Assembly (NCBI GenBank): GCA_020724265.1
Contig: DYHH01000002.1
Location: forward strand, 62,001-126,000
Origin: Melioribacter roseus
Lineage (GTDB): Bacteria > Bacteroidota > Ignavibacteria > Ignavibacteriales > Melioribacteraceae
Direction: 5' to 3'
DNA length: 64,000 bases
Part shown: in pieces, positions 30,579 to 53,963 of the stretch
Layout: the number at the start of each line of letters is the position of its first letter
Numbering within the stretch: the stretch's first letter is position 1
Notes under the pieces: model-generated
What the model was told of the DNA's origin: nothing
Database searches by the model: none
What the model saw: the letters and a program-made list of their open reading frames with translations, nothing else
Translations under genes and position numbers: made by a program

Positions 30579-31745
30579 ATGCCAGAAAAACTTAAATTCA
30601 ACGACCCAACACCCCTTTATGAGCAAATTCAGATTGATATAAAGAAACGAATTGAATCAGGCGAACTCAACGTCGGAGATCAGGTTGGTTCTCAAAATGA
30701 ACTTGCACGGGAATATGACGTGAGTGTAATTACAATTAAAAAGGCTCTGCTGAACTTAGTAAATGAAGGAATTTTATATACTCGAGTCGGTAAAGGCACT
30801 TATGTCTCCGACCAAACATTTTCGAAGAGAAAATTCTCCGATCAAAAAACTATTGGGCTGGTTCTTAGAGATCTTAAGCATCCGTTCTTCTCTATGATAG
30901 TTCAAAGTATCGAAGAGGAAGCATATAATCTTGGCTATACTCTTGTTCTTACAAGTTCGTCAAATAAGATTGAAAAAGAAGAGTATCAAATAAAGAATTT
31001 TAAAAACATGGGGGTTGAAGGATTAATTATTGCATCTCTTTCTCTGGAATATACAGCCACAAATTACATTCAAAAACTTCATGATGATAAATTCCCTTAT
31101 ATAATGATCTCATATATGCATGACCCGCAATATTGGTTTATTGGCTCCGATCATGAATTTGGCGGTTATTTGGCAACCGAACATTTGATTAAAACCGGAT
31201 ATAAACGAATTGGTTATGTTCATATAGGAAAAGGCAATTTACTTAGTGAAGTAAGAAAAAACGGGTATTCCCGGGCTTTAATGGATTACGGAATTCCATT
31301 CGATTCAAAACTAATCTTCTCTTTAAGAAAGGAACAATTCGATTCAGGCGAAGATAGAGTTGAACTTGGTTATGAATTCGGTAGTGAGTTTATAAATATG
31401 AAACAAAAACCGGAAGCCCTGTTCTTTTATAACGATTCTACTGCATTAGGTTTTATTAAATCACTCAATGAACATAATTTTAAAGTGCCAAACGATATTG
31501 CTATTGTTGGTTATGATGATATTGAGTTGGCAAAATTTGCATCGGTTCCTCTTACAACAATCCGGCAGCCGGTTAGTAAAATCGGGTCTCAAGCCGTTCA
31601 AATAATTCATAGACGAATAAATGGAGAAGATGTAACAAACAGAACTATTTATCGCCCCGAACTGGTGATCCGAAATTCATGTGGTTCAAAAGTTCATTCG
31701 AATAATAATCTTATAAATCAACAACAAGAACCGGAAGGAATCTGA
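30579..31745 (+). CDS. AraR-type regulator: GntR DNA-binding domain fused to LacI-type sugar sensor
   Basis: A 388-residue repressor-like protein. Residues 1-80 form a GntR winged helix (PLYEQIQIDIKKRIESGELNVGD, ELAREYDVSVITIKKALLNL, GILYTRVGKGTYV). Residues about 90-370 form a LacI/GalR-type periplasmic-binding-protein fold (KTIGLVLRDLKHPFFSMIVQSIEEEA, GFIKSLNEHNFKVPNDIAIVGYDDIELAKF). This is the AraR architecture. It is the first gene of the 33-kb run and is followed after seven bases by the TRAP transporter, so the ligand is probably a uronate or a uronate-pathway intermediate. Confidence 0.88.
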   Translation: MPEKLKFNDPTPLYEQIQIDIKKRIESGELNVGDQVGSQNELAREYDVSVITIKKALLNLVNEGILYTRVGKGTYVSDQTFSKRKFSDQKTIGLVLRDLKHPFFSMIVQSIEEEAYNLGYTLVLTSSSNKIEKEEYQIKNFKNMGVEGLIIASLSLEYTATNYIQKLHDDKFPYIMISYMHDPQYWFIGSDHEFGGYLATEHLIKTGYKRIGYVHIGKGNLLSEVRKNGYSRALMDYGIPFDSKLIFSLRKEQFDSGEDRVELGYEFGSEFINMKQKPEALFFYNDSTALGFIKSLNEHNFKVPNDIAIVGYDDIELAKFASVPLTTIRQPVSKIGSQAVQIIHRRINGEDVTNRTIYRPELVIRNSCGSKVHSNNNLINQQQEPEGI

Positions 31746-31752
31746 TTACGTA

Positions 31753-32766
31753 ATGATATTGATTGATAAAAAATATAATCGTGCACTTAAACGATTACTT
31801 AATATTGTATTTAGTACGTTTATCATTTTAATGATGATTTCTTGTGATTCAGATTCATCGATCAAACATTTAAAAATAGGACATGGGTTGGACAGGACAC
31901 ACCCTGTTCACCTTGCAATGGAATTTCTTGCTGATAGAGTTTACGAGAAGTCAAGTGGGAAAATTGAAATAACCGTTTATCCCAGCCAACAACTTGGAAC
32001 AGAAAGGGAATGTCTGGAATTACTTCAAATCGGTAGCCTTGCCATGACAAAAGTTTCAGCATCGGTATTGGAAGGATTTGCACCTAATTTTAAAGTTTTT
32101 TCTCTACCGTATATTTTTAGAAGCGACGAACATAAGTTCGCTTTTTTTGAAAGTGATTTGGGACAGGAATTACTCCGGAGTCCGAAGGAGTTTTGGCTTA
32201 GAGGACTTTGCTATTATGATGCGGGAAGCAGAAGTTTTTATACGATAAGCAAACCGATACTATCACCGGATGATTTAACCGGATTAAAAATTAGAACGCA
32301 GGAAAGTCCGACTTCCGTAAAATTAGTTAACTCACTTGGCGGTTCTGCAACTCCAATTTCTTGGGGTGAACTTTATACTGCGCTGCAACAAGGTGTTGTC
32401 GATGGTGCCGAGAATAATCCACCTTCATTTTACTTATCAAGACATTATGAAGTATGCAAATTTTATTCATTAAACGAGCATACCTCTGTTCCCGATGTTT
32501 TACTTATTAGTACAATAATTTGGGATGAACTTTCCGGCGAAGAACAAAAATGGCTTGAAGATGCTGCAATGGAATCTTATGATTATCAAAAAAAGCTTTG
32601 GCAGAAGGCTACTGTAGAAGCACTTGAAAAAGTTAAAGAAGCCGGAGTAGAAATATATTATCCCGATAAAGAATTATTTGCTGAGAAAGCCGAATCGCTT
32701 TTACTCGAGTTCAGAAATCAACCGGAAGTTTGGGAGCTAATTCAAAAAATTGATGAGATACAATGA
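31753..32766 (+). CDS. dctP: TRAP transporter substrate-binding lipoprotein
   Basis: A 337-residue DctP/TeaA-type receptor. The leader ends MMISC (Cys31), so it is probably a lipoprotein and not a free periplasmic protein. The body shows the family signature: IGHGLDRTHPVHLAMEFLAD, YPSQQLGTERECLELLQIGSLAMT, LKIRTQESPTSVKLVNSLGGSATPISWGELYTALQQGVVDGAENN; the Arg of IRTQ is the carboxylate-binding position in this family. A carboxylated sugar (galacturonate, glucuronate or an unsaturated uronate) is therefore the expected ligand. It overlaps dctQ by four bases. Confidence 0.92.
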   Translation: MILIDKKYNRALKRLLNIVFSTFIILMMISCDSDSSIKHLKIGHGLDRTHPVHLAMEFLADRVYEKSSGKIEITVYPSQQLGTERECLELLQIGSLAMTKVSASVLEGFAPNFKVFSLPYIFRSDEHKFAFFESDLGQELLRSPKEFWLRGLCYYDAGSRSFYTISKPILSPDDLTGLKIRTQESPTSVKLVNSLGGSATPISWGELYTALQQGVVDGAENNPPSFYLSRHYEVCKFYSLNEHTSVPDVLLISTIIWDELSGEEQKWLEDAAMESYDYQKKLWQKATVEALEKVKEAGVEIYYPDKELFAEKAESLLLEFRNQPEVWELIQKIDEIQ

Positions 32767-33260
32767 AACTTTCTCAAGTTAAAAATAGAGTAGATTCAGT
32801 GCTGAAGTGGTTTCTTATAATTCTTATGGCACTTATGACAGTCAATGTTTTATGGCAAGTTTTTTCGAGATTTGTTTTACAAACTCCCAGTTCATTTACC
32901 GAAGAACTTGCCCGATATATGTTAATTTGGGTTGGAATTTTGGGCGCTGCTTATGTTGCCGGACAAAAAATGCATCTTGCGATTGATCTTCTTCCAACCA
33001 AATTAAAAGGAAAGTCAAAAGCTGTTCTTGACATTTTTATTCAATCGACAATTTTTTTGTTTGCTCTTGTTGTTATGGTCATCGGTGGAATACGATTAGT
33101 TGTTATAACGTTAACATTGAAACAGATTTCCGCGGCAATGCAAATTCCACTTGGATACATTTATACAGTTTTACCTCTTAGCGGAGCACTGATGGTGTTT
33201 TATTCTTACTACTTTATTATTTCACAAATAAAAAGGCTCAAGAGTATAAAGGTAAATTAA
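32763..33260 (+). CDS. dctQ: TRAP transporter small permease
   Basis: A 165-residue protein with four membrane helices (about 14-34, 47-66, 88-110 and 129-150). FSRFVLQTPSSFTEELARYMLIWVGILGAAYVAGQKMHLAIDLL is the classic DctQ region. It forms the scaffold of the transporter with DctM, driven by a sodium gradient. It is coupled to dctP by an ATGA overlap and followed 11 bases later by dctM. Confidence 0.93.
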   Translation: MKLSQVKNRVDSVLKWFLIILMALMTVNVLWQVFSRFVLQTPSSFTEELARYMLIWVGILGAAYVAGQKMHLAIDLLPTKLKGKSKAVLDIFIQSTIFLFALVVMVIGGIRLVVITLTLKQISAAMQIPLGYIYTVLPLSGALMVFYSYYFIISQIKRLKSIKVN

Positions 33261-33271
33261 GAGAAAATATT

Positions 33272-34570
33272 ATGGAATTACTGGAGATAACCATACTAAT
33301 ATTAACATTTGTAATACTGCTTGCGGTTGGTGTTCCAATTTCATTTAGTATCGGCATTTCAAGTTTGGTTACTATGTTGATAAGTATTAACACAATCCCA
33401 TCCTTTACTACAGTTGCTCAAAGGATGGCAACCGGTCTTGACAGCTTTGCATTACTTGCAATACCTTTTTTTATACTTGCGGGTCAGTTAATGAACAGCG
33501 GCGGTATTGCAAGAAGATTAATAGATTTTGCTAAGGTACTTGTCGGTAAACTTCCCGGTGGACTTGCATTCGTAAACATTATGGCAGCAATGTTATTTGG
33601 AGCAATTTCCGGCTCTGCAGTTGCCGCTGCTTCTGCCATTGGTGGGTTTATGACTCCGGTTATGAAAAAAGAAGGGTATGATACTGGGTTTTCTGCCGCT
33701 GTAAATATAACATCATCAACTACTGGTCTTATTATTCCGCCAAGCAACATACTTATAGTTTATTCTTTAGCAAGCGGCGGTGTTTCGATTGCTGCGCTTT
33801 TCCTTGCAGGTTATATTCCGGGAATTATAATTGGTCTTAGCTTAATGATAGTTGCCGGTATATATGCAAATCGAAGTGACTACAAAGTTAAATTCGATAT
33901 TACTTTCGGCTATGCTGTAAAAAAATTTTTCGACGCAATTCCCAGTTTACTGCTTATCGTAATTGTAATAGGCGGAATTGTTGCGGGATATTTTACAGCT
34001 ACCGAAGCCTCAGCTGTTGCTGTTTTGTATGCGTTTATTTTATCGGTATTCATCTATCGCGAAGTAAAGTTTAAAGATCTCTCAAAAATTTTATTGAGCA
34101 GTGTTACAACTACTGCAATAGTAATGTTGTTAGTTGGTACTTCTATGGCAATGTCTTGGGTTATGGCTTATGAGAATATTCCGCAAAATGTAGCAGAGGC
34201 ACTATTAGCATTATCCGATAACGGTATAGTAATATTAATAATCATTAATCTTATTCTTTTGTTTATCGGTACTTTCATGGATATGACACCGGCAGTACTC
34301 ATATTTACCCCTATATTTCTGCCTATAGCTGTTCAATTAGGGGTTGACCCGATCCACTTCGGAATATTTATGGTGATGAATCTCAGTATCGGGTTATGTA
34401 CACCGCCTGTCGGTAGTGTTTTATTTGTCGGATGCTCCGTTGCAGATTTACCGATTACTAAAGTTATTAAGCCGCTCATTCCGATGTTTATCGCAATGAT
34501 TATTTCACTTTTGTTGGTTACCTATATTCCTGAGTTGAGCTTATTTATTCCCAAATTATTTGGTTATTAA
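33272..34570 (+). CDS. dctM: TRAP transporter large permease
   Basis: A 432-residue protein with about 12 hydrophobic segments and the DctM signatures AIPFFILAGQLMNSGGIARRLIDF, FGAISGSAVAAASAIGGFMTPVMKKEGYD, TGLIIPPSNILIVYS, TATEASAVAVLYA and LGLCTPPVGSVLF-like (GLCTPPVGSVLFVGC). It is the transport channel of the TRAP system. All three TRAP subunits are present and intact, which gives the locus a dedicated uptake route for uronates. Confidence 0.95.
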   Translation: MELLEITILILTFVILLAVGVPISFSIGISSLVTMLISINTIPSFTTVAQRMATGLDSFALLAIPFFILAGQLMNSGGIARRLIDFAKVLVGKLPGGLAFVNIMAAMLFGAISGSAVAAASAIGGFMTPVMKKEGYDTGFSAAVNITSSTTGLIIPPSNILIVYSLASGGVSIAALFLAGYIPGIIIGLSLMIVAGIYANRSDYKVKFDITFGYAVKKFFDAIPSLLLIVIVIGGIVAGYFTATEASAVAVLYAFILSVFIYREVKFKDLSKILLSSVTTTAIVMLLVGTSMAMSWVMAYENIPQNVAEALLALSDNGIVILIIINLILLFIGTFMDMTPAVLIFTPIFLPIAVQLGVDPIHFGIFMVMNLSIGLCTPPVGSVLFVGCSVADLPITKVIKPLIPMFIAMIISLLLVTYIPELSLFIPKLFGY

Positions 34571-34617: not shown

Positions 34618-35880
34618 ATGAAAAAAAAATATGTGATAGTGTTTACGACAATAGTTTTGATTCTCTTTTCCGCAGTTAAGATCGAAGCCGAAGATAATTT
34701 GAAAAAGCAAAAAGTGCTTCAGGCACTAAATGAATTAGCATATCACGCAAGTAACGTACTTCTTGATGAAGAAGGAAAATCCAGATGTGATTATAATATT
34801 GTGCAGGGCAAATGGTATCCTTATGAACCTGCCTGGCATACTGGTCAAATAATTAACGGACTGGTTGATGCTTATCGAGTTACGGATAATGAAGAATATT
34901 TAATCGCTGCAAAAAAAGCTGGAAATTGGTGGACAAGTTTACTTATTAAAGATCATCCTAAATTAGAAGGAATGTTATATGCAGTTCACGGCGATCATGC
35001 CGGAGAGGTATTAGTGTTTGCTACTATTTCTGACGGCACACCAGGATTGTTTAATCTTTATAAAGCAACTAAAATTGATAAATATGCTGCAGTTCCTACA
35101 AGTGCAGGCAGATGGATGCTTGAACATATGTATGTTCCCGAACATGGAGTTTTTTATGACACTGTTGACCCTGAAACAGGTGAAGTTAGAAAAGAAAACA
35201 GTCCTTTTTGGAAAGATAAAGAAGTACAAGAATTATTCGATGTTTCCAGACCAAATAATGAAGGTTCGCTTTTCAAAGATATGTATGAATATACCGGAGA
35301 TGAAAAGTATAAAAAAGTATTTATAGAACTCTGCAACAGTTTAGTTGAAAAGCAAGATGAATACGGTTTGTGGATGGATTTTATGCCTAATCACAAACAT
35401 GAAGGAACTTTTCATCCAAGATTTAACTTATGGTACGCCGAATCATTAATTGACGGATATGAATTGACAGGCGACAAGAGATACCTTGAAGCAGCAAGAA
35501 AAACTTTAGAGTTTCATGTTAAGTTCCAAGGCAAGGATGGTTCATTTCATTATGTAAATTATGTCGACGGTAGAACCGATAGAGGTTCAAAAACTGGTTC
35601 GGCAGTTGCATTCATTGGAATTTTAGGAATCAGGTTAATAGAACATGGCGTTGGTGAACAATTCAAAGATAACGTAGAAAGATCATTTAACTGGGTAATT
35701 AAAAATCGATACGCTCAAAATCATCCTGATCCAAACTTGAGAGGCGGATTGATTAATCTTAGATCTCGTCATCGTCAAGGGATGCATTGGATTACTCAAA
35801 GAGATGTAGGTACGGCATTCGGAATGAGATTTCTCGCAAAATATTACGAACATTATTTCGGTGACGAAAATAAAAAATGA
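34618..35880 (+). CDS. Exported alpha/alpha-barrel glycosidase-like protein, function unknown
   Basis: A 420-residue protein with signal peptide (MKKKYVIVFTTIVLILFSAVKIEAE). The body is a series of helical hairpins with the motif pattern TGQIINGLVDAYRVTDNEEYLIAAKKAGNWW, NLYKATKIDKY, GSLFKDMYEYTGDEKYKKVF and WYAESLIDGYELTGDKRYLEAARKTLEF. This is the six-hairpin (alpha/alpha)6 toroid of GH88/GH105, epimerase and lyase-like enzymes. I could not place it in one family. In this locus an action on unsaturated or saturated uronosyl residues is plausible. Its stop overlaps the next gene by four bases. Confidence 0.6.
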   Translation: MKKKYVIVFTTIVLILFSAVKIEAEDNLKKQKVLQALNELAYHASNVLLDEEGKSRCDYNIVQGKWYPYEPAWHTGQIINGLVDAYRVTDNEEYLIAAKKAGNWWTSLLIKDHPKLEGMLYAVHGDHAGEVLVFATISDGTPGLFNLYKATKIDKYAAVPTSAGRWMLEHMYVPEHGVFYDTVDPETGEVRKENSPFWKDKEVQELFDVSRPNNEGSLFKDMYEYTGDEKYKKVFIELCNSLVEKQDEYGLWMDFMPNHKHEGTFHPRFNLWYAESLIDGYELTGDKRYLEAARKTLEFHVKFQGKDGSFHYVNYVDGRTDRGSKTGSAVAFIGILGIRLIEHGVGEQFKDNVERSFNWVIKNRYAQNHPDPNLRGGLINLRSRHRQGMHWITQRDVGTAFGMRFLAKYYEHYFGDENKK

Positions 35881-37652
35881 AACTAAAAATATTTTCAATA
35901 TTATTTTTAGCAGTGAGTTGGACGTTTGCTCAAATATTACAACCGCAGCCAAAAGAGATTGTTAATCTTAATCAATCAATAATTCTGGATTCTGATTATT
36001 CTGTTCAAGTAAATTATACAAATGAAATTGAACATAAAGCAGCAAATTATCTTGAAAGATTGATAGTGCAGAAATTTAACAATCGTTTTTCGGTTGCCGA
36101 AAGCGAAAGCAAATCAAATTGGGAAATAGTTTTTAATTTAATCCCATTTTCTGATAAACATATTAATGATCAATATTATGAGCTAAATCCATCGGTAGAT
36201 AAAAAAATAATAGAAATATCTTCTCCGAGTCAACTCGGTTTACTTTATGGTGCTGTTACTTTTATTGATTTATTAATAAATAAAGATGATAGACTTAATT
36301 TTGATTTGGTTGAGATTAAGGATTATCCGGATTTTTCAAGAAGATTGCTTGTAGCTAATCCTTCCCCAAATGAAGTATCAGCTCTTTTTGATTTAGCACT
36401 TCAAAACAAATTTGAAACAGTAGTTATTGCAAGCCGCCAGCACCCGTGGTACGAATTAAGCGATGAGTATTTATCCATACTTAAAGAAATAAAAATTTGG
36501 AAAAATAGATACGGCGGCCCAAAAGTTATGCAGTCGCATAATGTTTATGAAGAAAAGAAAATCATTATTTCAAATCAATCGCATGTTAATGCATTGAAAG
36601 AGGTGATTGAAACTTCATATCTGCATGGGATTGAAAAACTTATGATTCTTTCGGATGATACTCCACCGTATAAGTTTGGTGAAGGTTATATACTTGTTGA
36701 TGAGAACGATAAAAAAACATTCCCGCATTTTGAAGCCGCCAACACATATTTAATGAATGAACTTGAAAATTGGTTTAACGAGAAGAACTATAATATTGAA
36801 TCCTATTATGTGCCGGCATATTATACTTATGAAGATATGCATCAAGGCGATATTGAATTATTCATTGGTACACAATGGGAAAGTGGTGCTTTGGAACCGC
36901 TGTATAGAGATTTGGAATACATTGGAACTAATATGAATGAGAGTATTTTCCTTATTTGGTGCGGTCCTTATGTGCGGAGCAGAATAATTACTAAAGAACA
37001 TATCGATGATTGGACGAAAAATCTAAGTGGTAGAGTTCCTTTCTTATGGGATAACACAATTTACAGTCATCATCCCTTTACGAGTACCCCGTTATTCACT
37101 GCTTATGAAAATGAATTCCCTAATAAATTTTTTTTGCTTACAGGGGGCAATGGTATTTTTATAAACGGTGATTTCAATTTGGAAGATCACAAAGTCGCGG
37201 CAATCACTGCAAATGATTATATGTGGAATCCGAATGATTATAATCCGGAATTATCACTTAAGCAAGCTATTGTTAGAATGTATGGTTCACAATTATATAA
37301 TCCACTTCTGGAATTTAAAGAGAAAGAATTAGAGATGAGAAAAGTAATTGGTCAAAGAAAACTTTGGTTTGAGACGGAAAAACTTTGGCAGCAAATTCGG
37401 AATGTGAGATTTGTTACAGATAAAAATCCATTTGACTATCACCTGAATTATACCCGGTTGAAAGGGTTGAGATTGCAATTGAAATCTTCGGTGCCGGAAC
37501 CCAAGTCTAAAGAAGACTTTATCTCGGAATGTAAAGTATTGGAAATGCAAAGAGAGCAAGTGTTGAATAAAATTAAATCACTTGACGAATCGGTTTTTAT
37601 GAGAATTAAAAAATTAGCAATTGAGTTACCGGATTTTGAAACGATTGATTAA
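35877..37652 (+). CDS. GH84-like (beta-N-acetylglucosaminidase-type) exported protein
   Basis: A 591-residue exported protein (signal peptide ending FAQ). Residues about 20-145 resemble the GH20b/NAGidase N-terminal domain (ISSPSQLGLLYGAVTFIDLL, VEIKDYPDFSRR). The central barrel contains KLMILSDDTPPYKFG with an Asp-Asp pair (Asp260-Asp261) in the position of the GH84 catalytic pair, and RVPFLWDNTIYSHHP in place of the usual WDNYPVND. The C-terminal helices (YMWNPNDYNPELSLKQAI) also fit the family. Divergence from true GH84 enzymes leaves the substrate open. Confidence 0.62.
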   Translation: MKLKIFSILFLAVSWTFAQILQPQPKEIVNLNQSIILDSDYSVQVNYTNEIEHKAANYLERLIVQKFNNRFSVAESESKSNWEIVFNLIPFSDKHINDQYYELNPSVDKKIIEISSPSQLGLLYGAVTFIDLLINKDDRLNFDLVEIKDYPDFSRRLLVANPSPNEVSALFDLALQNKFETVVIASRQHPWYELSDEYLSILKEIKIWKNRYGGPKVMQSHNVYEEKKIIISNQSHVNALKEVIETSYLHGIEKLMILSDDTPPYKFGEGYILVDENDKKTFPHFEAANTYLMNELENWFNEKNYNIESYYVPAYYTYEDMHQGDIELFIGTQWESGALEPLYRDLEYIGTNMNESIFLIWCGPYVRSRIITKEHIDDWTKNLSGRVPFLWDNTIYSHHPFTSTPLFTAYENEFPNKFFLLTGGNGIFINGDFNLEDHKVAAITANDYMWNPNDYNPELSLKQAIVRMYGSQLYNPLLEFKEKELEMRKVIGQRKLWFETEKLWQQIRNVRFVTDKNPFDYHLNYTRLKGLRLQLKSSVPEPKSKEDFISECKVLEMQREQVLNKIKSLDESVFMRIKKLAIELPDFETID

Positions 37653-37674: not shown

Positions 37675-38916
37675 TTGAAAAAATCTTGGAAGAAAATATT
37701 ACTATTTATTTCTACGATCGGTCCCGGACTTTTTTTGGTAGGATATAATATCGGAACCGGCAGTGTAACAACAATGGCTTCTGCCGGGGCGGCTCATGGA
37801 ATGGGACTCACATGGGCGGTGTTACTTTCTGTAATCTTCACTTATTTCTTAATTATTATCTTCGGAAAATTTACGCTGGTTACCGGAGACACTGCCTTGC
37901 ACAGTTATAAAAAACATTTTGGTAAAGGTTATGCCGGATTTGTATTAGTAACATTGATCTTCACAGAAATGATATCAAGTATGGGTGTGATGGCTGTTGT
38001 AGTTGAAGTTGTAAACGAGTGGTCAAAACCTCTTACACCATCGGGTGAAGGATTTGATATGATAGTTGTTACAATCTTCTTTGCTGTCATCTTAGTTTAC
38101 TTTTTATTCAGCGGTCATTACAGAAAAATTGAAAATATTCTTGCATTCTTTGTTGCAATAATGGGTTTAAGTTTTATACTATCTGCTTTTATGGTAATTC
38201 CTGATGCTGCAATGGTAATTTCAGGTCTTGTTCCCAATATACCCGGTGGTGAAAACGGCGGATTAATTGTAGCCGGAATGATCGGAACTACTATGGGAGG
38301 AGTTTTATTTATTGTAAGATCGGCAACTATTAAACAAAAAGATTGGAGTCTCAAAGATCTTAAAACCGAAAAGCGTGATGCAATAATTTCTGTATCGCTT
38401 ATGTTTTTTCTTAGTTTGGCAATTATGGCAGCCGCTGCCGGCACTCTTAATCCGTTGGGGTTAACAGTTGAAAATGCAGTAGATATGGTCAAATCGTTGG
38501 AACCGATAGCGGGAAGGTTTGCTATATCAATATTTGTGACTGGAATTGTTGCCGCAGGTTTATCTTCGTTATTCCCTCATTATATTTTAGTTCCTCTTTT
38601 ATTATCGGATTATAAGCAAGAAGAATTTACACTTAACAGTTGGCGGAACAGAGGTATAATAATTTTTTATGCATCACTCGGTCTTGTAATTCCCATCTTT
38701 GGCGGGCGTCCTGTCTTAGTTTTAATAATTGCTCAAGCTTTAACCCTGGTTGCTACTCCTTTGGTTCTTATTCTAATGATGATATTAATTAACCGTGAAG
38801 GTTTGATGGGGAAATACAAAGCGAATCTTTTCACAAACATTTTAATGGTATTAGTTACTTTATTCACCGCCGCAATGGCTATGGTTGGTATTGTTGGAAT
38901 AATGGAAAGTTTTTAA
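37675..38916 (+). CDS. Nramp-fold transporter lacking canonical metal-binding motifs
   Basis: A 413-residue membrane protein with about 11 hydrophobic helices, recognisable as Nramp-like from FISTIGPGLFLVGYNIGTGS in TM1 and GMIGTTMGGVLFIVRSATIKQ in TM6. In metal-transporting Nramp proteins these helices carry DPGN and MPH, which bind the ion; here they read as GYNIGTGS and MGG. The metal ligands are therefore missing and transport of Mn or Fe is doubtful. It starts probably with TTG at 37675. Its place inside a uronate locus suggests a different substrate, which is inference. Confidence 0.8.
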   Translation: MKKSWKKILLFISTIGPGLFLVGYNIGTGSVTTMASAGAAHGMGLTWAVLLSVIFTYFLIIIFGKFTLVTGDTALHSYKKHFGKGYAGFVLVTLIFTEMISSMGVMAVVVEVVNEWSKPLTPSGEGFDMIVVTIFFAVILVYFLFSGHYRKIENILAFFVAIMGLSFILSAFMVIPDAAMVISGLVPNIPGGENGGLIVAGMIGTTMGGVLFIVRSATIKQKDWSLKDLKTEKRDAIISVSLMFFLSLAIMAAAAGTLNPLGLTVENAVDMVKSLEPIAGRFAISIFVTGIVAAGLSSLFPHYILVPLLLSDYKQEEFTLNSWRNRGIIIFYASLGLVIPIFGGRPVLVLIIAQALTLVATPLVLILMMILINREGLMGKYKANLFTNILMVLVTLFTAAMAMVGIVGIMESF

Positions 38917-38917
38917 A

Positions 38918-39835
38918 ATGAATAAAAAATTTAATTCAAATATTGTCTGTGCTTATTTATACACAATTACAAAATACGGTTATCCCCCACCTGTTGATAA
39001 TTACATTAAGCAAATTGAAGAAATGGTTGCGCTCGGTTTTGAAAGTATTGAACTGGAAGGTATTAGGGAAGAGCATTTAACAGCAGTCTATAAGATTAAG
39101 GATAAGATTAACAATCGAATAACAGATTTGAAAATAAAAGTACCTCATTTTTGTACAGTCTTACCCGGTCTTTCAAGTACAGATCAAAATGTTAAAGAAG
39201 AGCAAATTAATCTATTCGAAAAAGGTTGTGAAATTGCCGTTGCTATTGGTGCAAAATCCGTTCTAGATAATGGACCTTTACCCCCGTTTACTTTTGAAGA
39301 TGATATCCCGATTACCCGGCATTATGATTCAAAAACTTTAGCGAATGCGTATATCCCGAAAAATTTAGATTGGAAGAAGTATTGGCTAACCTTAATTGAA
39401 ACTATGAAAACATTATGTGACATTGCCAAGAGTTATAGGTTAACTTATCAAATTCATCCGGCGGAAGGTGTTTTGTGTTCAACAACCGACGGATTTCTCA
39501 ATTTATTTGATGCGGTTAAAAAAGATAATTTAAAATTTACTTTTGATACGGCAAACCAATTTGCTGTAAAAGAGAATTTATCAATGTCTTTACACAGGCT
39601 CAAAGATCATATTGATTACATTCATATTTCGGATAACAGCGGTGATAGAATTGAACACCTTGAATTAACGAAAGGACAAATTAATTGGGATATATTCTTC
39701 GAAACATTAGACGTAATAAATTATAAAGGTGAGTTTGGTTTAGATATTGGTGGAGCGGAATCTAATGTTGAAGATTTGGATTCGGCATATATAAATTCTG
39801 CAGAGTACTTACAGCAAAAATATTTTTCTAAATAA
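38918..39835 (+). CDS. Sugar phosphate isomerase/epimerase-like TIM-barrel protein
   Basis: A 305-residue protein of the xylose isomerase-like AP endonuclease-2 fold. Metal-ligand positions typical of the family are visible: GFESIELEG, YQIHPAEG, KFTFDTANQF, DYIHISDNSGDRIEHLELTKGQINW and GEFGLDIGG. It lacks a signal peptide and so is cytoplasmic. It lies one base after the Nramp-like gene. The Gfo/Idh/MocA oxidoreductase two genes downstream is a frequent companion of this family in sugar conversion. The substrate is unknown. Confidence 0.78.
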   Translation: MNKKFNSNIVCAYLYTITKYGYPPPVDNYIKQIEEMVALGFESIELEGIREEHLTAVYKIKDKINNRITDLKIKVPHFCTVLPGLSSTDQNVKEEQINLFEKGCEIAVAIGAKSVLDNGPLPPFTFEDDIPITRHYDSKTLANAYIPKNLDWKKYWLTLIETMKTLCDIAKSYRLTYQIHPAEGVLCSTTDGFLNLFDAVKKDNLKFTFDTANQFAVKENLSMSLHRLKDHIDYIHISDNSGDRIEHLELTKGQINWDIFFETLDVINYKGEFGLDIGGAESNVEDLDSAYINSAEYLQQKYFSK

Positions 39836-39839
39836 AAAA

Positions 39840-42410
39840 ATGAACGAAATGAAAAAACTACTATCAATTATAATATTCACTTTACTTTTAGGTTTTAATG
39901 AAGCATCTGAGCTTCCCGTTATTCCTTTGCCGAAACAAGTCGATTACAATAATTCGAAATTTTCTCTTGAAGTTTCGGATTTAAATCTAAAATTATTTGT
40001 AAAGGATACTAACCAAGTAATGCATGGTGTTTCCGAGTTACAAGTTGAATTCAAAAGATGGCATAATATAAATGTTAATTTATCCGAGAATCAAAATGCC
40101 CAAATTATATTGGGATTAAAAGGGAGCAATAAAAATTTTGATAAGCTTTGCAAAGAAGCAAACTTTAATTTAGAAAATGAGATTGGTAAACAAGGTTATC
40201 AACTGCAAATATCTAATGATCGAATTATTATAGCTGCAAACAAGAAACAAGGGCTTTATTACGGAATCCAAACTTTAAAACAACTGCTAAGAGGTTTTCT
40301 TAATCAAACCGAGTTGCCGGGAATGATTGTTAGAGATTATCCTGATCTGAAATATCGTTTTTTGATGGATGATATAAGCCGAGGTCCAATCCCTACAATG
40401 GAATTTATGAAATATCAGATTAGGCGTATTGCCGAATTAAAAATGAATGGTATGACTCATTATGTAGAGCATGTTGTTAAAACCAAGAAACATGGTGCAT
40501 TTGCTCCTCCTGATGGATCAATTACAATTGAAGAGTGGAAAGAACTTTCAAGTTATGCAAAAAAATATTTTGTAACTCTTGTAGGAAGCTTTCAGTCTTT
40601 CGGGCATTTCCAGAGTATCCAAAATCATCCGAAATATGCACCCCTTGCTGAAAGTGGAAGCTTAATATCCCCTGTTTTGCCTGAAAGCATTGAGTTTTTA
40701 AGAGATATATATGAAGAAATGATTCCAGCCTTTGATGCTCCTTGGTTTGCTATTAATTGTGATGAAACTTTTGATCTTGGCAGAGGATACTCAAAACAAT
40801 TAGTTGAAGAGATCGGCTATGCTCAAGTATATAAAAAACATGTGCTTAAGTTAAATGATATTGTTAAAGATCACGGAAAAAGATCGTGGATTTGGGGTGA
40901 TATAATGTTGCAATATCCCGAACTGATAGACCAACTTCCAAAGGATATGATTGTCGGTACCTGGACTTATGATTCCCGTGATTCGTTTGATGAGTATATA
41001 ATTCCATTTAAGGAAAAAGGATTTGATGTTCTTGTTGTACCGGGTGTTTTAAATTCAACCAGAACAATGCCTGATTGGAATCAAACCGTTATTAATATTC
41101 ATAATTTTATTAGAGACGGTGTAAAGCATAATGCTATGGGTTTCTTAAATACGGTTTGGGATGATGGCGGATTTGCTTTTTTCTCTCTTGACTGGTATGG
41201 AGTAGTATACTCGGCAGATCAAGGCTGGTATTCGCGAGAAATAAATCTTGAAAGTTTTCACAATCGATTTAACCGGTCAATTAATGTTGATGACAGTAAT
41301 AATTTTACCGATGCCCTTTATAAATTGCTGGAGATAGGTGAACTTTCACCAACAGGCAGAATGAGCCAGAAAGTTGTGTGGTTAAAAGTTCTACCTGAAA
41401 AATATGAGAGTGTTAATATATCTATTGATGAATGGGATCAAGTTCTTAATCTATGCGATCAAGCCGAAGAATTGTTAAATAATTCATCCCCACAATTATA
41501 TACCGAGCAGAAAGAATATTTCCAATTTATTGTTGAACTTTATCGATCGATGGCAAAGAAAAGATTTAATATGATTGATGCAGCCGATATATATAAAGAA
41601 GCATCTATTTTGCAGGACGCTGCCCCTGAAAACTCGAGAGAATTACTTTTAAAGGCACTTGAGCTAATTTCTAATACAAAACAAATGCAGATTAAATTAG
41701 CAGCTCAGTATAAATCCCTTTGGCTAAAAGAAAATCATACATATTCGTTGATGAAAATTGTTGACCAGTTCTATAAAGAAATTGATGATCTGTATGAAAT
41801 TGAAAAATTAGTTTTTGATGCACTCAAACTTTTTGATTCCGGTTTGTATATACCCAATCCAAACGAAGTTAGATTGGAAATAAATCAAGTATCAGGTAAG
41901 TATTTCAGAGAATGGATGATGATAAACCCGCTTCCAAATGATGATAATCTTCCAAGTTCACAAATTGATTATCTTGTTGAAATGGGGGGAGAAAAAAATG
42001 CTAAACCAAAAGTAACCCAAGAATTTTTCTATGATAGTCAAAAATATAGATGGAGAAGAGTTGAAACCGAATATTTTGATGTAGTAAATCTTGCCGAACT
42101 TTTTCCGGATAAAAATGAAAATGTAGTTATGTATGCACATGCAACTATAAATTCTCCAATAGCACAAGTTGTTAAGGCTTCTGTCGGCAGCGCTGATGGT
42201 ATAAAAGTTTTCATAAACAGTAATATCGTTTATGAGTTTGACCGGACACGAACTTTGTCGCCTGATGAAGATTCATTTGAGATAAACCTGAATGAAGGTG
42301 TCAATCATCTGTTGATTAAGATTACTCAATTATCGGGAGAATGGGGATTCACATTTCGGCTTCCTGAAAGCAAAGTACAAAACAGCAAGAATCGCTATTA
42401 CATAAGATGA
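39840..42410 (+). CDS. GH20-family beta-N-acetylhexosaminidase-like protein
   Basis: An 856-residue exported protein. Signal peptide, then a GH20b-type N-terminal domain (about 25-165), then a GH20-like barrel beginning YRFLMDDISRGPIPTMEFMK. The catalytic acid pair is Asp308-Glu309 in AINCDETFDLG. WIWGDIMLQYPEL and FLNTVWDDGGFAFFSLDWYGV are further barrel strands. Residues about 700-850 form an extra beta-sandwich (VKASVGSADGIKVFINSNIVYEF) that may bind carbohydrate. An ATG three codons in (39849) is an equally good start. It probably removes terminal N-acetylhexosamine; its stop overlaps the next gene by four bases. Confidence 0.78.
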   Translation: MNEMKKLLSIIIFTLLLGFNEASELPVIPLPKQVDYNNSKFSLEVSDLNLKLFVKDTNQVMHGVSELQVEFKRWHNINVNLSENQNAQIILGLKGSNKNFDKLCKEANFNLENEIGKQGYQLQISNDRIIIAANKKQGLYYGIQTLKQLLRGFLNQTELPGMIVRDYPDLKYRFLMDDISRGPIPTMEFMKYQIRRIAELKMNGMTHYVEHVVKTKKHGAFAPPDGSITIEEWKELSSYAKKYFVTLVGSFQSFGHFQSIQNHPKYAPLAESGSLISPVLPESIEFLRDIYEEMIPAFDAPWFAINCDETFDLGRGYSKQLVEEIGYAQVYKKHVLKLNDIVKDHGKRSWIWGDIMLQYPELIDQLPKDMIVGTWTYDSRDSFDEYIIPFKEKGFDVLVVPGVLNSTRTMPDWNQTVINIHNFIRDGVKHNAMGFLNTVWDDGGFAFFSLDWYGVVYSADQGWYSREINLESFHNRFNRSINVDDSNNFTDALYKLLEIGELSPTGRMSQKVVWLKVLPEKYESVNISIDEWDQVLNLCDQAEELLNNSSPQLYTEQKEYFQFIVELYRSMAKKRFNMIDAADIYKEASILQDAAPENSRELLLKALELISNTKQMQIKLAAQYKSLWLKENHTYSLMKIVDQFYKEIDDLYEIEKLVFDALKLFDSGLYIPNPNEVRLEINQVSGKYFREWMMINPLPNDDNLPSSQIDYLVEMGGEKNAKPKVTQEFFYDSQKYRWRRVETEYFDVVNLAELFPDKNENVVMYAHATINSPIAQVVKASVGSADGIKVFINSNIVYEFDRTRTLSPDEDSFEINLNEGVNHLLIKITQLSGEWGFTFRLPESKVQNSKNRYYIR

Positions 42411-43456
42411 ACGATAACAAAGTAAAAATAGGAATTGTAGGATGCGGAAATATTGCCCCTGTTCATGCAGAAGCAATAAGCAGCACCAATTACGGCATAC
42501 TGATTTCTGTTTTTAGTAGAAGTGAATCAAATATAAATAAGATGAAAGATAGATTTAATGTTGCCGGATATGATGATTATGAAAAATTCTTATCGGATCC
42601 CAATTTAGATGCAGTCAGCATTTGTACACCCAACGGAACACATCTTGAATTTGCGGAAATGGCGGCAAAAGCAGGCAAACATGTTGTTATTGAAAAACCA
42701 ATTGAAGTTGATATTCGCCGAGCTAAAAGAATAATTGATATATGTAATAAGAATAATGTTAAGCTCGCCGTTATTTATCAAAATAGATTTTTGGATGATG
42801 TGATAAAAATGAAAAATGTAATTGATAAAGGAGTTCTTGGTAAAATATTTATGTCTGATGCTCGTATTAAGTGGTATAGAGATCAGCAATATTATGATAG
42901 TGCTCAATGGCGTGGTTCTTTTAAATTGGATGGTGGCGGAGTACTTATCAATCAAGCAATTCACACAATCGATCTTTGGCTGTGGATGTTGGGAGAGCCC
43001 AAAACAATCTTTGCTCATACAGGAACTTTTACTCACAATAATATCGAAGGCGAAGATAATGCAGTTGCCGTAGTAGAATTTCGAAATGGATCAATAGGAG
43101 TTCTACAAGGTTCAACTTCAATTATTCCGGCAATGAAAAGAAGAATTGAGATTCATGGTGAAAATGGGACGGGAATTTTAGACGGAGATGTTTTTTATTT
43201 GCTCGATAATCAGAACAAAGTTATCAAAGAAGATAATAATTCTATTAATACGGGCGGGGCTAGCCCATTAGCCGGTTTTTCAATTGAACATCATAAAAAA
43301 CAATTTGAACAAATCTTTGATGCAATAATAAACAATAAAAAACCGGTTGTATCAGGTGAAGAAAGTTTGAAATCTCTCGCATTTGTCAAAGCAGTATATG
43401 AGTCAGCAAAAAACAGAACAGAAGTAAACTACGATGAATATTTGGCTGGTCAATAA
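42407..43456 (+). CDS. Gfo/Idh/MocA-family oxidoreductase
   Basis: A 349-residue NAD(P)-dependent sugar oxidoreductase. The N-terminal Rossmann motif is KIGIVGCGNIAPVHAEAI, the family EKP motif is HVVIEKPIEVD with the catalytic-type Lys, and GGGVLINQAIHTIDLWLWMLGEP supplies the conserved His/Asp helix. No signal peptide is present, so it acts in the cytoplasm. Coupled to the GH20 gene by ATGA overlap. Oxidation of a released sugar or glycoside is likely; the substrate is unknown. Confidence 0.9.
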   Translation: MNDNKVKIGIVGCGNIAPVHAEAISSTNYGILISVFSRSESNINKMKDRFNVAGYDDYEKFLSDPNLDAVSICTPNGTHLEFAEMAAKAGKHVVIEKPIEVDIRRAKRIIDICNKNNVKLAVIYQNRFLDDVIKMKNVIDKGVLGKIFMSDARIKWYRDQQYYDSAQWRGSFKLDGGGVLINQAIHTIDLWLWMLGEPKTIFAHTGTFTHNNIEGEDNAVAVVEFRNGSIGVLQGSTSIIPAMKRRIEIHGENGTGILDGDVFYLLDNQNKVIKEDNNSINTGGASPLAGFSIEHHKKQFEQIFDAIINNKKPVVSGEESLKSLAFVKAVYESAKNRTEVNYDEYLAGQ

Positions 43457-43476
43457 TAATTAATTTGAGAAATGAA

Positions 43477-44727
43477 ATGAACAAAAATGCTATACTATTA
43501 TTAATAACGTTATTTATAATTTCATGTGGTGATAAAAATGAAAGAAACATATCTCTTGCTGTTCATAATCCCACTAATATTGAAAGGGAATCGGAGTTTG
43601 TTTTAGTTGACCTTAGTAAACTGAAAGAAAAATATCGTGATTTCAACATTGAGGCTTTTAGAATATTCGATGGAGAAACAGAGCTTCCCTATCAAATTAT
43701 TGATAATAATTTTGCCGGGTTTACACTTAATGTTGATGCAGCAGCCAGTAAAAAAATTAAAATCACTTTTTTAAAAGAAGGGAAACTGAATATTAAGTAT
43801 CCTCCCAAAACTTATGCTGAAATTGCAATGAAAGTCGATTATGATTATAAAGATGGAAAATATACGGGAGGTCGTTTTCAAAATTTTTCAAGAGTAAGAA
43901 TTCCGGATGACCATATTGATCATAATGCACTATTTAAGTATGAAGGTCCCGGTTGGGAGTCAGACAAAATTGGATATCGTTTATATATTGATTGGCGTAA
44001 TCGAATTGATATCTTCGGTAAGAAAACAAATAATCTTGTCTTGAGCAAGGTTGGAATTAATGATTTGGATGCGGAAGACGATTCCTACCATTATATGCAG
44101 GAGTGGGGAAAAGACATCTTTAAAGTAGGGAGCTCTTTAGGAATCGGTTCTTTCGGAATGATGGTAAATGATGAAATAATTATGGTTTCCAAAAGAGACA
44201 GTGTTATTTGTGAGATAATCGAAAATGGACCGGTTCAAGCCGCAGTTAAAGTTGATTATTTCGGTTGGGAAGTTGATAAAAGAAAATTTGATTTGAACGC
44301 ACGACTTTCAATCAATTCGGCGAGTAGATTAACAAAAGTTCAACTAACTGCAAATGACTATCCGGAAAATTTTGTTACAGGTTTTGCAAAACATGCAAAT
44401 ACAGAATTTTCTTCATCAATAAATGAAAACGAATGGTCTTACATTTCTTTATTTGGAGTACAAACAGCTGCCGACTATGGTGATCCGCGTAACGCTGTTG
44501 ATAATTTAGGTATTGCGGTTTTCTTTCTGGAAGAAGATCTTATCGGACAAACCGAGACAGATGATAGTTATGTATTGATCCTAAATCCGACAGATGGAAA
44601 ATTAAATTATTACTTTGCTGCAGCTTGGGAACAAGAACCCGAAGGTATTAAAACTTATGAAGAATTCATCAATTATTTAGAAGAGACATTAATAATTCTT
44701 AATCAGCCTTTAGAAGTCATTTTTTAA
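43477..44727 (+). CDS. DUF4861 lipoprotein
   Basis: A 416-residue lipoprotein with leader MNKNAILLLITLFIISC (lipid-carrying Cys17). The body follows DUF4861: ISLAVHNPTNIERESEFVLVDLS at the start, then GPGWESDKIGYRLYIDWRNRIDIFGKK, YHYMQEWGKDIFKVGSSLGIGSFG and a late LTANDYPENFVTGFAKH. This family is common in pectin/uronate loci of Bacteroidota and relatives, but its activity is not established to my knowledge. The in-frame TTG at 43465 is rejected because the ATG at 43477 gives a normal leader. Confidence 0.82.
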   Translation: MNKNAILLLITLFIISCGDKNERNISLAVHNPTNIERESEFVLVDLSKLKEKYRDFNIEAFRIFDGETELPYQIIDNNFAGFTLNVDAAASKKIKITFLKEGKLNIKYPPKTYAEIAMKVDYDYKDGKYTGGRFQNFSRVRIPDDHIDHNALFKYEGPGWESDKIGYRLYIDWRNRIDIFGKKTNNLVLSKVGINDLDAEDDSYHYMQEWGKDIFKVGSSLGIGSFGMMVNDEIIMVSKRDSVICEIIENGPVQAAVKVDYFGWEVDKRKFDLNARLSINSASRLTKVQLTANDYPENFVTGFAKHANTEFSSSINENEWSYISLFGVQTAADYGDPRNAVDNLGIAVFFLEEDLIGQTETDDSYVLILNPTDGKLNYYFAAAWEQEPEGIKTYEEFINYLEETLIILNQPLEVIF

Positions 44728-44742: not shown

Positions 44743-46155
44743 ATGCCTGTATACAGTTTGCATAAAGATAGATTTTTTGACCCCGACCCAACAGTCAGAA
44801 AATTTGCAAGCGAAATTTATAATAGTACAAAAGAATTACCGATTGTAAGTCCGCATGGTCATGTAGATCCGAAAATTTTTGCGGATAACCATCCTTTTCC
44901 AAATCCAACTGAATTGTTTCTAATACCCGACCATTATTTGTTTCGGATGCTTTATTCTCAAGGCATTTCGCTTGAATCACTTGGCATTCCGTCTGTTAAT
45001 GGTAAAAAAGTTGAAACCGATCCCCAAAAAATTTGGAAAATTTTTGCAGAAAATTATTACCTGTTTAATGGAACCCCGTCCGGTGTTTGGCTCGATTATG
45101 AATTTAATCAAGTCTTCGGGATAAAAGAAAAGCTTAATAGTAATAATGCAATTAAGATTTATGATGAACTTCAGGAGAAAATTAATTCCCCCGAATTTTT
45201 ACCGCGAAATCTTTTCGATAAATTTAATATAGAAATACTTGCTACTACTGATTGTGTTATAGATGATTTAACATTTCACAAAGAAATCAAGACTTCAGGT
45301 TGGAATGGGAAAATTGTTCCCTGCTTTAGACCGGATAGTCTAACAGACCTCTCTTCTAACATGTGGATGCCGAATATTATTAAACTTGGTGAAAAATTCG
45401 GAAGTGAAATCACTTCATATAAGAAATACATTCAAGCTTTAGAGGAACGAAGAAAATTCTTTAAAGAAATGGGAGCTACATCAACCGATCATGGTGTTTT
45501 TTCTCCTTTCACTCAAGAGTTATCTTACAACAAAGTTGAAGAAATTTTTCAAAGGGCATTAAAAGGTGATTCGACGCAGGAGGATGTAAAATTATTCACA
45601 GCGCATATGTTAATGGAAATGGCAAGAATGAGTTCTGAAGACGGACTAGTAATGCAAATCCATCCAGGTTCTTATAGGAATCATAATCAAATTGTCTTTG
45701 AAAAATTTGGTGCAGATAAAGGGTGTGATATTCCTATCAAAATGGATTTTACATTCAATTTGAAAGAGCTGCTTAACAAGTATGGAAATAACCCGAATTA
45801 TACACTTATAATTTTTACATTGGATGAGTCAACTTATTCAAGAGAATTAGCTCCTCTTGCCGGTCATTATCCGGCAATGAAACTTGGACCGGCTTGGTGG
45901 TTTCTTGATAGTATTGAAGGAATGACTCGATATCGTGAATTAGTTACCGAAACCGCGGGTTTTTATAATACGGTCGGATTTAACGATGATACAAGGGCTT
46001 TCGTATCAATTCCTGCAAGGCATGATTTGTCAAGACGTGTTGATGCTAATTATTTAGCCAAACTTACGGCTAAACATATTATTAATATAAGTGAAGCAAT
46101 TGAAATTGGATATCAGCTTGCTTATGAATTAGTTAAAAAAACTTACAAGTTGTAA
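44743..46155 (+). CDS. uxaC: Uronate (glucuronate/galacturonate) isomerase
   Basis: A 470-residue amidohydrolase-fold isomerase. The metal-binding HxH is in VSPHGHVDP (His38, His40), and FNGTPSGVWLDYEF, TTDCVIDD, PCFRPDSL, MQIHPGSYRNHN and TLDESTYSRELAPLAGHYPAMKLGPAWWF are family signatures. It converts D-galacturonate to D-tagaturonate and D-glucuronate to D-fructuronate. GGAG precedes the ATG. UxaE, KDPG aldolase, mannonate oxidoreductase and KDG kinase follow with gaps below 35 bases, giving a near-complete cytoplasmic uronate route. Confidence 0.97.
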   Translation: MPVYSLHKDRFFDPDPTVRKFASEIYNSTKELPIVSPHGHVDPKIFADNHPFPNPTELFLIPDHYLFRMLYSQGISLESLGIPSVNGKKVETDPQKIWKIFAENYYLFNGTPSGVWLDYEFNQVFGIKEKLNSNNAIKIYDELQEKINSPEFLPRNLFDKFNIEILATTDCVIDDLTFHKEIKTSGWNGKIVPCFRPDSLTDLSSNMWMPNIIKLGEKFGSEITSYKKYIQALEERRKFFKEMGATSTDHGVFSPFTQELSYNKVEEIFQRALKGDSTQEDVKLFTAHMLMEMARMSSEDGLVMQIHPGSYRNHNQIVFEKFGADKGCDIPIKMDFTFNLKELLNKYGNNPNYTLIIFTLDESTYSRELAPLAGHYPAMKLGPAWWFLDSIEGMTRYRELVTETAGFYNTVGFNDDTRAFVSIPARHDLSRRVDANYLAKLTAKHIINISEAIEIGYQLAYELVKKTYKL

Positions 46156-46174
46156 ATAATAAGTTGGGGAATAT

Positions 46175-47728
46175 ATGTACGCTGTCAACATCAAAGAAAA
46201 AATTAAAATTGATCAGACCAAACCGAATTATTTAATTCAACTCGATCTTGATCAAAATATTAAAGTAGTGGCTTACTCAAAATCCATCTTAGAAAGTAAA
46301 GAGAAAGTATTTTTTATTGCTAGAGAAAACAAAAATAAGTATCTCTATATTATTAAGAATAATATGAAGGGAACTACAGTTGATTTATCTCATTTTGAAG
46401 GAACTTTTGTTGATGCAAATAAATTGGTTATGAGATGTGAATTATCAACTAAAAACAGGAAAGCTCTACAAAGGGAATTATCTTTCGCAAATCCTTCGGT
46501 TCTTGGCTTGAGCAATTCATTCGGTTTTGGTGATAGACTTGGTCTTTCAAACCCCGGTCATTTAAGAGCACTTCGTAACTCAAAATTCAAACCAGTACTT
46601 GCTCAGCAATCTATTCGTGAATTAATGCGAACCAATAGAACTCCCGATGAAGTTATGGATGCGGCTGTTTGGGCGGTTGTTCAAGAAGGTTATAAAGAAG
46701 GATTTGGTGCCGATGCAGATCATCTTAAAACTACTGATGATATTGATCTTATGGTAAAAGCCGGGTTTACTATGTTTACTTTTGACCCTAGCGAACATGT
46801 TGATAATGAAGCTGATAACTATGATGAAGAAACACTCTTGGAAATGTTGGCAGCCTTACCTTGGAAATTACTTGAAGACTCTTTCCCTGATGCTGAGCAA
46901 AGATATCTTTCAAAACCTATAAAGATTTCTGAAAGTTTAATCATTTCACCTAACGAAATTGAGTTACTTAGAGCTTATTCCAAATACGGTAAAGCTATTG
47001 CTCACATCAAGAATCTTTATAAGTATATTCAGGAAAATTACTCAAACCTTGAATTTGAAATAGAAGTTTCTGTGGATGAGACTGAATCCGTCACTTCTCC
47101 TTTTGAACATTTCTTTTTCTCAAATGAGTTAATACGGCTTGGTGTGAGATTCATTAGTCTTGCTCCCCGATTCATTGGTGATTTTGAAAAAGGAATTGAT
47201 TACAAGGGGGACTTAATTGCATTTGAAGAAGAATATAAAAAACATCTTGCAATAACCGAATATTTTGATTCTTATAAAATCAGCCTTCATTCAGGTAGTG
47301 ATAAATTTTCTGTTTATCACATTATCGGGAAATTGAAAAGCGGTAAAACTCATGTAAAAACTGCCGGTACAAGTTATCTTGAAGCACTTAAAACTGCTGC
47401 AATAAAGCAGCCCGATTTATTCAGAGAGATTTTAGATTATTCAAGAAATTTGTATGAACATGAAAAGAAAACATACCATGTTTCTGCTGATATCAATAAA
47501 GTTCAACCATCAGTAAAATATAGTAATGAAGAATTGTTGAAACTTTTTCTATCAGATGATGCAAGACAAATATTGCATGTTACTTTTGGACGAGTATTAA
47601 CGGATAAAGATGATAAAGGTAATTATATTTTTAAGAATAAAATTCTCGATTGCCTCAGGGAAAATGAAGATACGCATTATGATTTGCTTATTGAACATTT
47701 TCGAAAACACTTGGAGCCATTCGAATAA
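46175..47728 (+). CDS. uxaE: Tagaturonate/fructuronate epimerase
   Basis: A 517-residue protein of the UxaE family, whose members interconvert D-tagaturonate and D-fructuronate and so merge galacturonate and glucuronate catabolism without a tagaturonate reductase. Recognised from LSNSFGFGDRLGLSNPGHLRAL, FGADADHLKTTDDIDLM, FTFDPSEHVDNEAD, EIEVSVDETESVTSPFEHFF, FISLAPRFIGDFEKGIDY and KISLHSGSDKFSVY. GGGGA lies four bases before the ATG. Its position between uxaC and kdgA matches the proposed role. No UxaB or UxaA is present, which is consistent with this shortcut. Confidence 0.9.
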   Translation: MYAVNIKEKIKIDQTKPNYLIQLDLDQNIKVVAYSKSILESKEKVFFIARENKNKYLYIIKNNMKGTTVDLSHFEGTFVDANKLVMRCELSTKNRKALQRELSFANPSVLGLSNSFGFGDRLGLSNPGHLRALRNSKFKPVLAQQSIRELMRTNRTPDEVMDAAVWAVVQEGYKEGFGADADHLKTTDDIDLMVKAGFTMFTFDPSEHVDNEADNYDEETLLEMLAALPWKLLEDSFPDAEQRYLSKPIKISESLIISPNEIELLRAYSKYGKAIAHIKNLYKYIQENYSNLEFEIEVSVDETESVTSPFEHFFFSNELIRLGVRFISLAPRFIGDFEKGIDYKGDLIAFEEEYKKHLAITEYFDSYKISLHSGSDKFSVYHIIGKLKSGKTHVKTAGTSYLEALKTAAIKQPDLFREILDYSRNLYEHEKKTYHVSADINKVQPSVKYSNEELLKLFLSDDARQILHVTFGRVLTDKDDKGNYIFKNKILDCLRENEDTHYDLLIEHFRKHLEPFE

Positions 47729-47729
47729 A

Positions 47730-53938: not shown

Positions 53939-53963
53939 TTTCTTTTACTAATTTGAGAGTTTG

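Follow-up and report, generated by a model that had tools for sequence, protein, structure and literature searches.

The window, a stretch of 64,000 nucleotides of Melioribacter roseus DNA, encodes an Nramp-related transporter (37675-38916, + strand; 413 aa, TTG start) in which the canonical metal site of this family is absent. Sequence comparison places it in a well-supported clade, newly described here as the IGTGS clade, which stands apart from the canonical Nramps, the Mg-type NRMTs and the PxpT group; no paper describing it was found in a literature search. It constitutes a coherent new branch of an established superfamily, for which a new class of substrate is proposed, and not a new kind of system. 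The loss of the metal site, together with a setting, in many bacteria, among genes for the digestion of sugars and acids, makes small organic nutrients, and not metals, the most likely imported substrates. The protein is probably a LeuT-fold secondary importer which has given up the metal site and moves small organic molecules through the inner membrane, possibly of the hexosamine type in the window's locus. What we infer for it is that it works inwards, that its substrate is a hexosamine and that transport is coupled to an ion gradient. That the clade carries organic substrates is considered quite likely, while a hexosamine-type sugar as the cargo of the window's own member is put forward tentatively.

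Loss of the metal site

The frame at 37675-38916 is open throughout and was the sole sensible reading when both strands were compared. It matches Pfam family PF01566 (Nramp) with 190.7 bits (gathering score 29.8; E 5e-56), the alignment covering protein residues 31-384 and profile positions 1-356 of 357, and the Pfam scan showed no added regulatory domain. The ORF scores over the cut-off of the NCBIfam Nramp_1 model and far below that of the MntH model (72.6 bits vs 430). Its relatives in the PDB by sequence are EleNRMT, BfraNramp and DraNramp. An AF2 model (53 aligned sequences; pLDDT 87.4) had its best PDB matches in DraNramp (TM 0.81), EleNRMT (TM 0.81) and BfraNramp, with AdiC-type amino-acid transporters as distant next matches, and the Nramp-type LeuT fold is present in this predicted structure. 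Taken together, the Pfam match, the PDB relatives and the TM score to DraNramp place homology to Nramp beyond chance.

An earlier note on this DNA, made from its letters, had claimed that the DPGN and MPH motifs are absent and that their loss is not an alignment gap, and both statements were borne out. TM1 and TM6 align with DraNramp without gaps, D56-P-G-N59 falling on G27-T-G-S30 (D56 to G27, P57 to T28, N59 to S30) and M230-P-H232 on G208-G-V210 (M230 to G208, P231 to G209, H232 to V210, flanked by A227 to T205 and H237 to R215). GTGS (residues 27-30; 37753-37764, + strand), invariant in 95 clade members, replaces DPGN, and GTTMGGV (residues 204-210; 38284-38304, + strand) replaces GATVMPH in the alignment. 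An alignment gap as the source of the missing motifs was ruled out because both helices align ungapped and the change is clade-wide. The canonical DPGN/MPH site occurs in none of the 95 members, and the clade alignment retains no conserved Asp, Met, His or Cys at the TM1/TM6 site. The 'MGG' motif named earlier stood in its GG part (G208-G209) and fell in its first residue, M207, which aligns to V229 and varies (M/C/L/V/F).

Changes extend beyond these two helices. Arg215 (38317-38319, + strand), at the position of DraNramp His237, is invariant in the clade (95/95). The TM3 proton-path acids of DraNramp (D131/E134) are neutral residues in the window protein; in TM9, Arg352 is retained as R326 and Arg353 is lost; in TM10, Gln378 is retained as Gln354. 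Ser297 in TM8 is conserved in the clade and in canonical Nramps too, and is therefore of no use as evidence for sodium coupling. It has been described that Nramp-related proteins without the canonical site form a diverse, paraphyletic outgroup (PMC12873925, PMC4072509, PMC10606218) and that NRMTs, which likewise have no canonical site, transport Mg and Mn (PMC8806188), so that motif loss alone has precedent and does not establish a non-metal substrate. The earlier argument from the missing ligands needs this qualification: the loss by itself does not prove that metal transport has gone, as NRMTs and YcsG illustrate.

The IGTGS clade and its relatives

A similarity search over 297 genomes of the phylum, in which the motif was not used, located 20 hits in 19 genomes, with the window's own among them. 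Clade relatives other than the window's share 36-66% identity with it, followed by a sharp fall to 23-30% for other Nramp types, and IGTGS is present in 19 of 19 aligned rows (window's gene counted; rows collected independently of the motif). Scanning GTDB genomes by pattern yielded at least 571 relatives, with 80 loci kept, and motif conservation within this set is partly circular since the scan picks on the motif. The kept loci come from Bacteroidota, Chlorobiota/Ignavibacteria, KSB1, Gemmatimonadota, Acidobacteriota, Glassbacteria, Neomarinimicrobiota and Pseudomonadota. Phylogeny of the GYNIGTGS homologues, proposed as a check in the earlier note, returned a monophyletic group in two maximum-likelihood trees (support 100/99 and 100/100).

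Nramp proteins of the same phylum fall into five classes: canonical DPGN/MPH, NDAGG/GTTIAPW (NRMT, adjoining MgtE_N), IGPGT/GTTVVPYN (the PxpT class, with PxpA, PxpB and PxpC genes downstream), GPGS and IGTGS. Most clade-bearing genomes carry other Nramps as well. In the trees, the GPGS group is nearest to the IGTGS clade, and the PxpT group lies between the clade and the canonical and NRMT proteins. The GPGS-type group (TM1 GPGS, TM6 SSFSIAG) was seen at L115:5977-9298 and in loci L121 and L119; in L115 and L121 the gene is followed by two conserved genes with no Pfam or NCBIfam match. This group is possibly another organic-substrate branch.

Along the Nramp backbone of the tree, the closest group with functional studies is PxpT/YcsG, for which two competing readings exist: Mn import, as reported for YcsG, whose overproduction raises Mn (PMC10448178), and 5-oxoproline uptake, C. 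glutamicum requiring the Nramp-family protein PxpT to grow on 5-oxoproline (PMC13274462). Like the window protein, this group has the PF01566 fold, lacks the TM1 Asp and is encoded alongside genes for the catabolism of an organic compound. It differs in TM1 (IGPGT), TM6 (GTTVVPY) and its pxpABC neighbours, and forms a clade of its own (support 100/98-100/99); no pxp genes were found in the window operon or among the listed clade neighbours. NRMTs, represented by EleNRMT, resemble the window protein in fold (TM 0.81), in Thr205 of TM6, as in TxxA, and in having no canonical proton path, but they keep the TM1 Asp (DAGG), have MgtE_N or M-box partners and form a separate clade. When the DxxG feature of NRMTs was looked for, the TM1 Asp was Gly in 95 of 95 members and the TM6 Thr of TxxA/T was present; no MgtE-like partner was found in the window run or among the listed clade neighbours. 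Membership of either group was ruled out by motif, tree and context. Canonical Nramp/MntH proteins (DraNramp, BfraNramp) share the Pfam family, the fold (TM 0.81), the TM10 Gln and the TM8 Ser, whereas the window protein is without DPGN, MPH and the TM3 Asp/Glu and lies in a separate clade. An Nramp in the alginate system of Alteromonas has been labelled a metal-ion transporter (PMC6431674).

Gene context and proposed function

The transporter gene lies within a long same-strand run with gaps of mostly 0-50 bp (all features on the + strand). At its head is a regulator with a GntR-type HTH and a LacI-type periplasmic/sugar-binding domain (30579-31745), followed by the three genes of a TRAP transporter, DctP-DctQ-DctM (31753-34570), likely the uronate importer of the locus. 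Next come a GH88/C5-epimerase-like protein (34618-35880; exported type by its N-terminus) and a protein with a GH84-like beta-N-acetylglucosaminidase domain and a signal-peptide-like N-terminus (35877-37652). One bp past the transporter begins a cytosolic AP_endonuc_2 protein, a TIM barrel of the sugar isomerase/epimerase type (38918-39835) which co-occurs with the transporter, and this is followed by a GH20-like glycosidase (39840-42410; exported type by its N-terminus), a Gfo/Idh/MocA oxidoreductase (42407-43456) and a DUF4861 protein. The enclosure by glycosidase and epimerase genes described earlier was thus found as stated. The run continues with genes for uronate catabolism (UxaC glucuronate isomerase, UxaE tagaturonate epimerase and KDPG aldolase, 44743-48380), SDR and PfkB kinase, and farther on with a cytosolic protein of the glucosamine-6-phosphate deaminase family (NagB-like, 53168-53938) and KduI. 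Compared with E. coli NagB, the phosphate-loop region of the NagB-like protein seems shortened and the Arg172 equivalent lost, which would suggest an unphosphorylated substrate; this is a lead only.

Three other proteins of the window were noted. The DUF4861 protein (43465-44727) matches the NCBIfam BT3233 polysaccharide utilization family below cut-off, an 841-aa protein with no Pfam match (53961-56486) recurs in nine related loci, and at 58110-59162 a TonB C-terminal domain (residues 45-122) is fused to a ThuA domain (136-346).

Comparable settings were found across the clade. In a scan of 126 genes lying on the same strand as, and no more than 300 bp from, 84 clade genes, AP_endonuc_2 (22), NagB-type (20) and NagA-type (19-20) were the most frequent families, counts that represent association and not effect size given simple ORF calling and related, non-independent genomes. 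These were followed by GH88, GH20, GH2, GH28, KDPG aldolase and SSF, and none of the 25 neighbour families listed is metal-related. Other Nramp classes of the phylum differ markedly in their surroundings, the PxpT class being accompanied by pxpABC and NRMT by MgtE_N. The first of three recurring contexts, that of the window, consists of glycan loci with AP_endonuc_2 and GH20-like genes. In the second, that of a second subclade, the order is MocA-MocA-NagA-transporter-NagB, with no uronate genes. The third, in flavobacterial members of one subclade, comprises alginate/KDG operons with KDG kinase and KDPG aldolase, named by sequence resemblance and by matches to window genes. The window's subclade (at least 52% identity to the window protein) is present in 9 of the 297 genomes and the neighbouring isomerase in 10; both occur in 9, always in one locus (hypergeometric p 2e-16 by genome, 4e-11 by genus). 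In all 9 subclade genomes a NagB-like gene of 51% or higher identity lies within about 15 kb. The earlier note had recommended inspecting gene neighbourhoods and had regarded a home mostly in metal operons as fatal to an organic cargo; the clade was instead found in carbohydrate or organic-acid catabolic operons.

Loci around NagB-like genes were also surveyed in genomes or contigs with no clade transporter nearby. The slot X of MocA-NagA-X-NagB operons is occupied by the clade protein, a NagP/GluP-type MFS permease or an SSF symporter, never by two, and no two of these types occur within three same-strand genes of one NagA. The order is NagA-MFS-NagB in L214 and L215, where NagB is 67-68% identical to the clade-associated NagB, and MocA-MFS-NagA-NagB in L205 and L207; an SSF symporter is present in L201, L203, L204, L208 and L210. 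The four MFS proteins reach 377-390 bits against NagP_SO3503 (NF046060), below the equivalog cut-off, and score above the cut-off for the glucose/galactose MFS model TIGR01272. These permeases have folds unrelated to that of the clade protein and are thus analogues sharing the same slot, not relatives. No other single argument against a metal role is as strong as the occupation of the slot by sugar-type permeases in otherwise alike operons, and this occupation, with the clade contexts, supports the earlier suggestion of an organic substrate.

A crude hydropathy test was used to assign topology. Signal peptides are absent from the NagB-like and AP_endonuc_2 proteins, MocA proteins carry Tat motifs and glycosidases have Sec-type N-termini. 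The NagA proteins beside second-subclade transporters are exported (21 Sec-like and one Tat-like, the latter, in L138, being of a different NagA lineage), whereas those beside MFS or SSF permeases are cytosolic (10/10; in two of these, L207 and L214, the called ORF runs too far, reaching the MFS gene that overlaps it). The NagA tree requires at least two changes, that is, at least two independent origins of exported NagA. This contrast sets the clade protein of the second context between a periplasmic deacetylase and a cytosolic deaminase and suggests that deacetylation precedes import there, in which case the imported sugar would be the free amino sugar. Coupling of exported NagA with the clade is not perfect, since NagA is cytosolic in L051, which belongs to the window's subclade, and L212 has an exported NagA with no adjacent transporter. 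As no NagA above cut-off was found in the window's genome and the one NagA-adjacent case in its subclade (L051) is cytosolic, the deacetylated-sugar inference fails for the window, whose genome also yielded no GluP-type MFS. Tat-exported MocA oxidoreductases recur with NagA and NagB in L201-L217 under any transporter type, which may point to an oxidation step in the periplasm when amino sugars are used.

For the window locus, it is proposed that the exported GH84-like, GH20-like and GH88-like glycosidases would free monosaccharides from a polymer that includes uronic acid and hexosamine, that the TRAP system would take up the uronate and that the Nramp-related protein would take up a hexosamine-type sugar or derivative, to be processed by the cytosolic AP_endonuc_2 isomerase and NagB-like deaminase. 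Import would proceed by alternating access between the TM1 and TM6 breaks; the small residues Gly27, Ser30, Gly208 and Gly209 would leave room at the former metal position, with Gln354 and the invariant Arg215 as candidate polar contacts. Because some loci contain a second transporter, namely TRAP in the window and SSF in L038, L042 and L059, exclusion does not reveal the substrate.

It is considered unlikely that the protein imports a divalent metal (Mn, Mg or another ion) by way of a rearranged site and is co-expressed so as to furnish sugar enzymes with the metal they depend on. AP_endonuc_2 isomerases and NagA belong to metalloenzyme families and use metal ions, so a metal-supply role would fit the context alone; furthermore, the TM10 Gln is kept and no other Nramp above cut-off was found in the window's genome. 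Such a role has likewise been proposed for MumT, which is encoded in a urea operon with urea carboxylase and raises cell Mn (PMC5050338), and the effects of YcsG (PMC10448178) and NRMT (PMC8806188) on Mn or Mg transport point the same way. However, the TM1 Asp and Asn and the TM6 Met and His are all lost, including the Asp that NRMTs keep, sugar-type permeases replace the protein in the same operons, the listed neighbour families include none from a metal regulon, and positions 28.5-60 kb of the window showed neither a Mg nor a Mn riboswitch. Most clade-bearing genomes have other Nramps and the window's genome encodes FeoB; no ZIP was found there as another metal route. Judged from the DNA, then, no metal-site feature, metal gene or metal riboswitch appears to support metal import.

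Slightly less probable still is the import of a uronate, keto acid or similar acid in place of a hexosamine, with Arg215 binding the carboxylate. The invariance of this residue, the wealth of uronate genes in the window locus, the link of one subclade to KDG kinase and KDPG aldolase and a CoA transferase in an E. coli operon of the clade (see below) would agree with it. The window, however, already has a TRAP system, a family typically carrying acids, and the second subclade lies between NagA and NagB with no uronate genes. LeuT-fold proteins can act as receptors, but it is very improbable that the protein senses or exports, or is retained for some other reason, given the conservation pattern of a full transporter at the TM1/TM6/TM10 site, the replacement of MFS and SSF importers and the lack of an added regulatory domain.

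Occurrence in Escherichia coli and significance

The clade locus was identified in 827 of 5,426 complete E. coli genomes (about 15%, one in seven). Strain SK1144 encodes an intact 409-aa clade protein, annotated 'Nramp family divalent metal transporter', with 39% identity to the window protein and a position inside the IGTGS clade in the tree. Its gene stands between those of an enoyl-CoA hydratase and an FAD-dependent oxidoreductase, and the operon (L223:4291-9988) further encodes a CoA transferase and a LacI regulator. This uncharacterised operon is inserted between dnaB and qorA, a site that is empty in K-12. Its context is one of organic-acid catabolism, so substrates within the clade would be diverse. 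It is reasonably probable that the clade as a whole, found in Bacteroidota, KSB1, Gemmatimonadota, Acidobacteriota and Pseudomonadota and in some 15% of complete E. coli genomes, brings sugars, amino sugars and organic acids into the cell and not metals, and that the label 'Nramp family divalent metal transporter' is a misannotation.

Textbooks treat Nramps as metal transporters, and the origin of a metal-selective site in a fold whose other members carry amino acids and further organic compounds is an open question, in which Nramp-related proteins have been placed as possible intermediates (PMC12873925, PMC4072509). If the proposal is true, organic-nutrient relatives of Nramp would give this question a testable start, automatic annotation would be corrected in hundreds of genomes and a missing transport step would be filled in the amino-sugar and uronate catabolism of bacteria without NagP or PTS. 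The E. coli member makes the clade directly accessible to genetics. A broken member was also found, through a plasmid search, in CP054241.1 (L222), an 834-kb E. coli 'plasmid' record which carries dnaB, alr and tyrB and therefore looks like a piece of chromosome.
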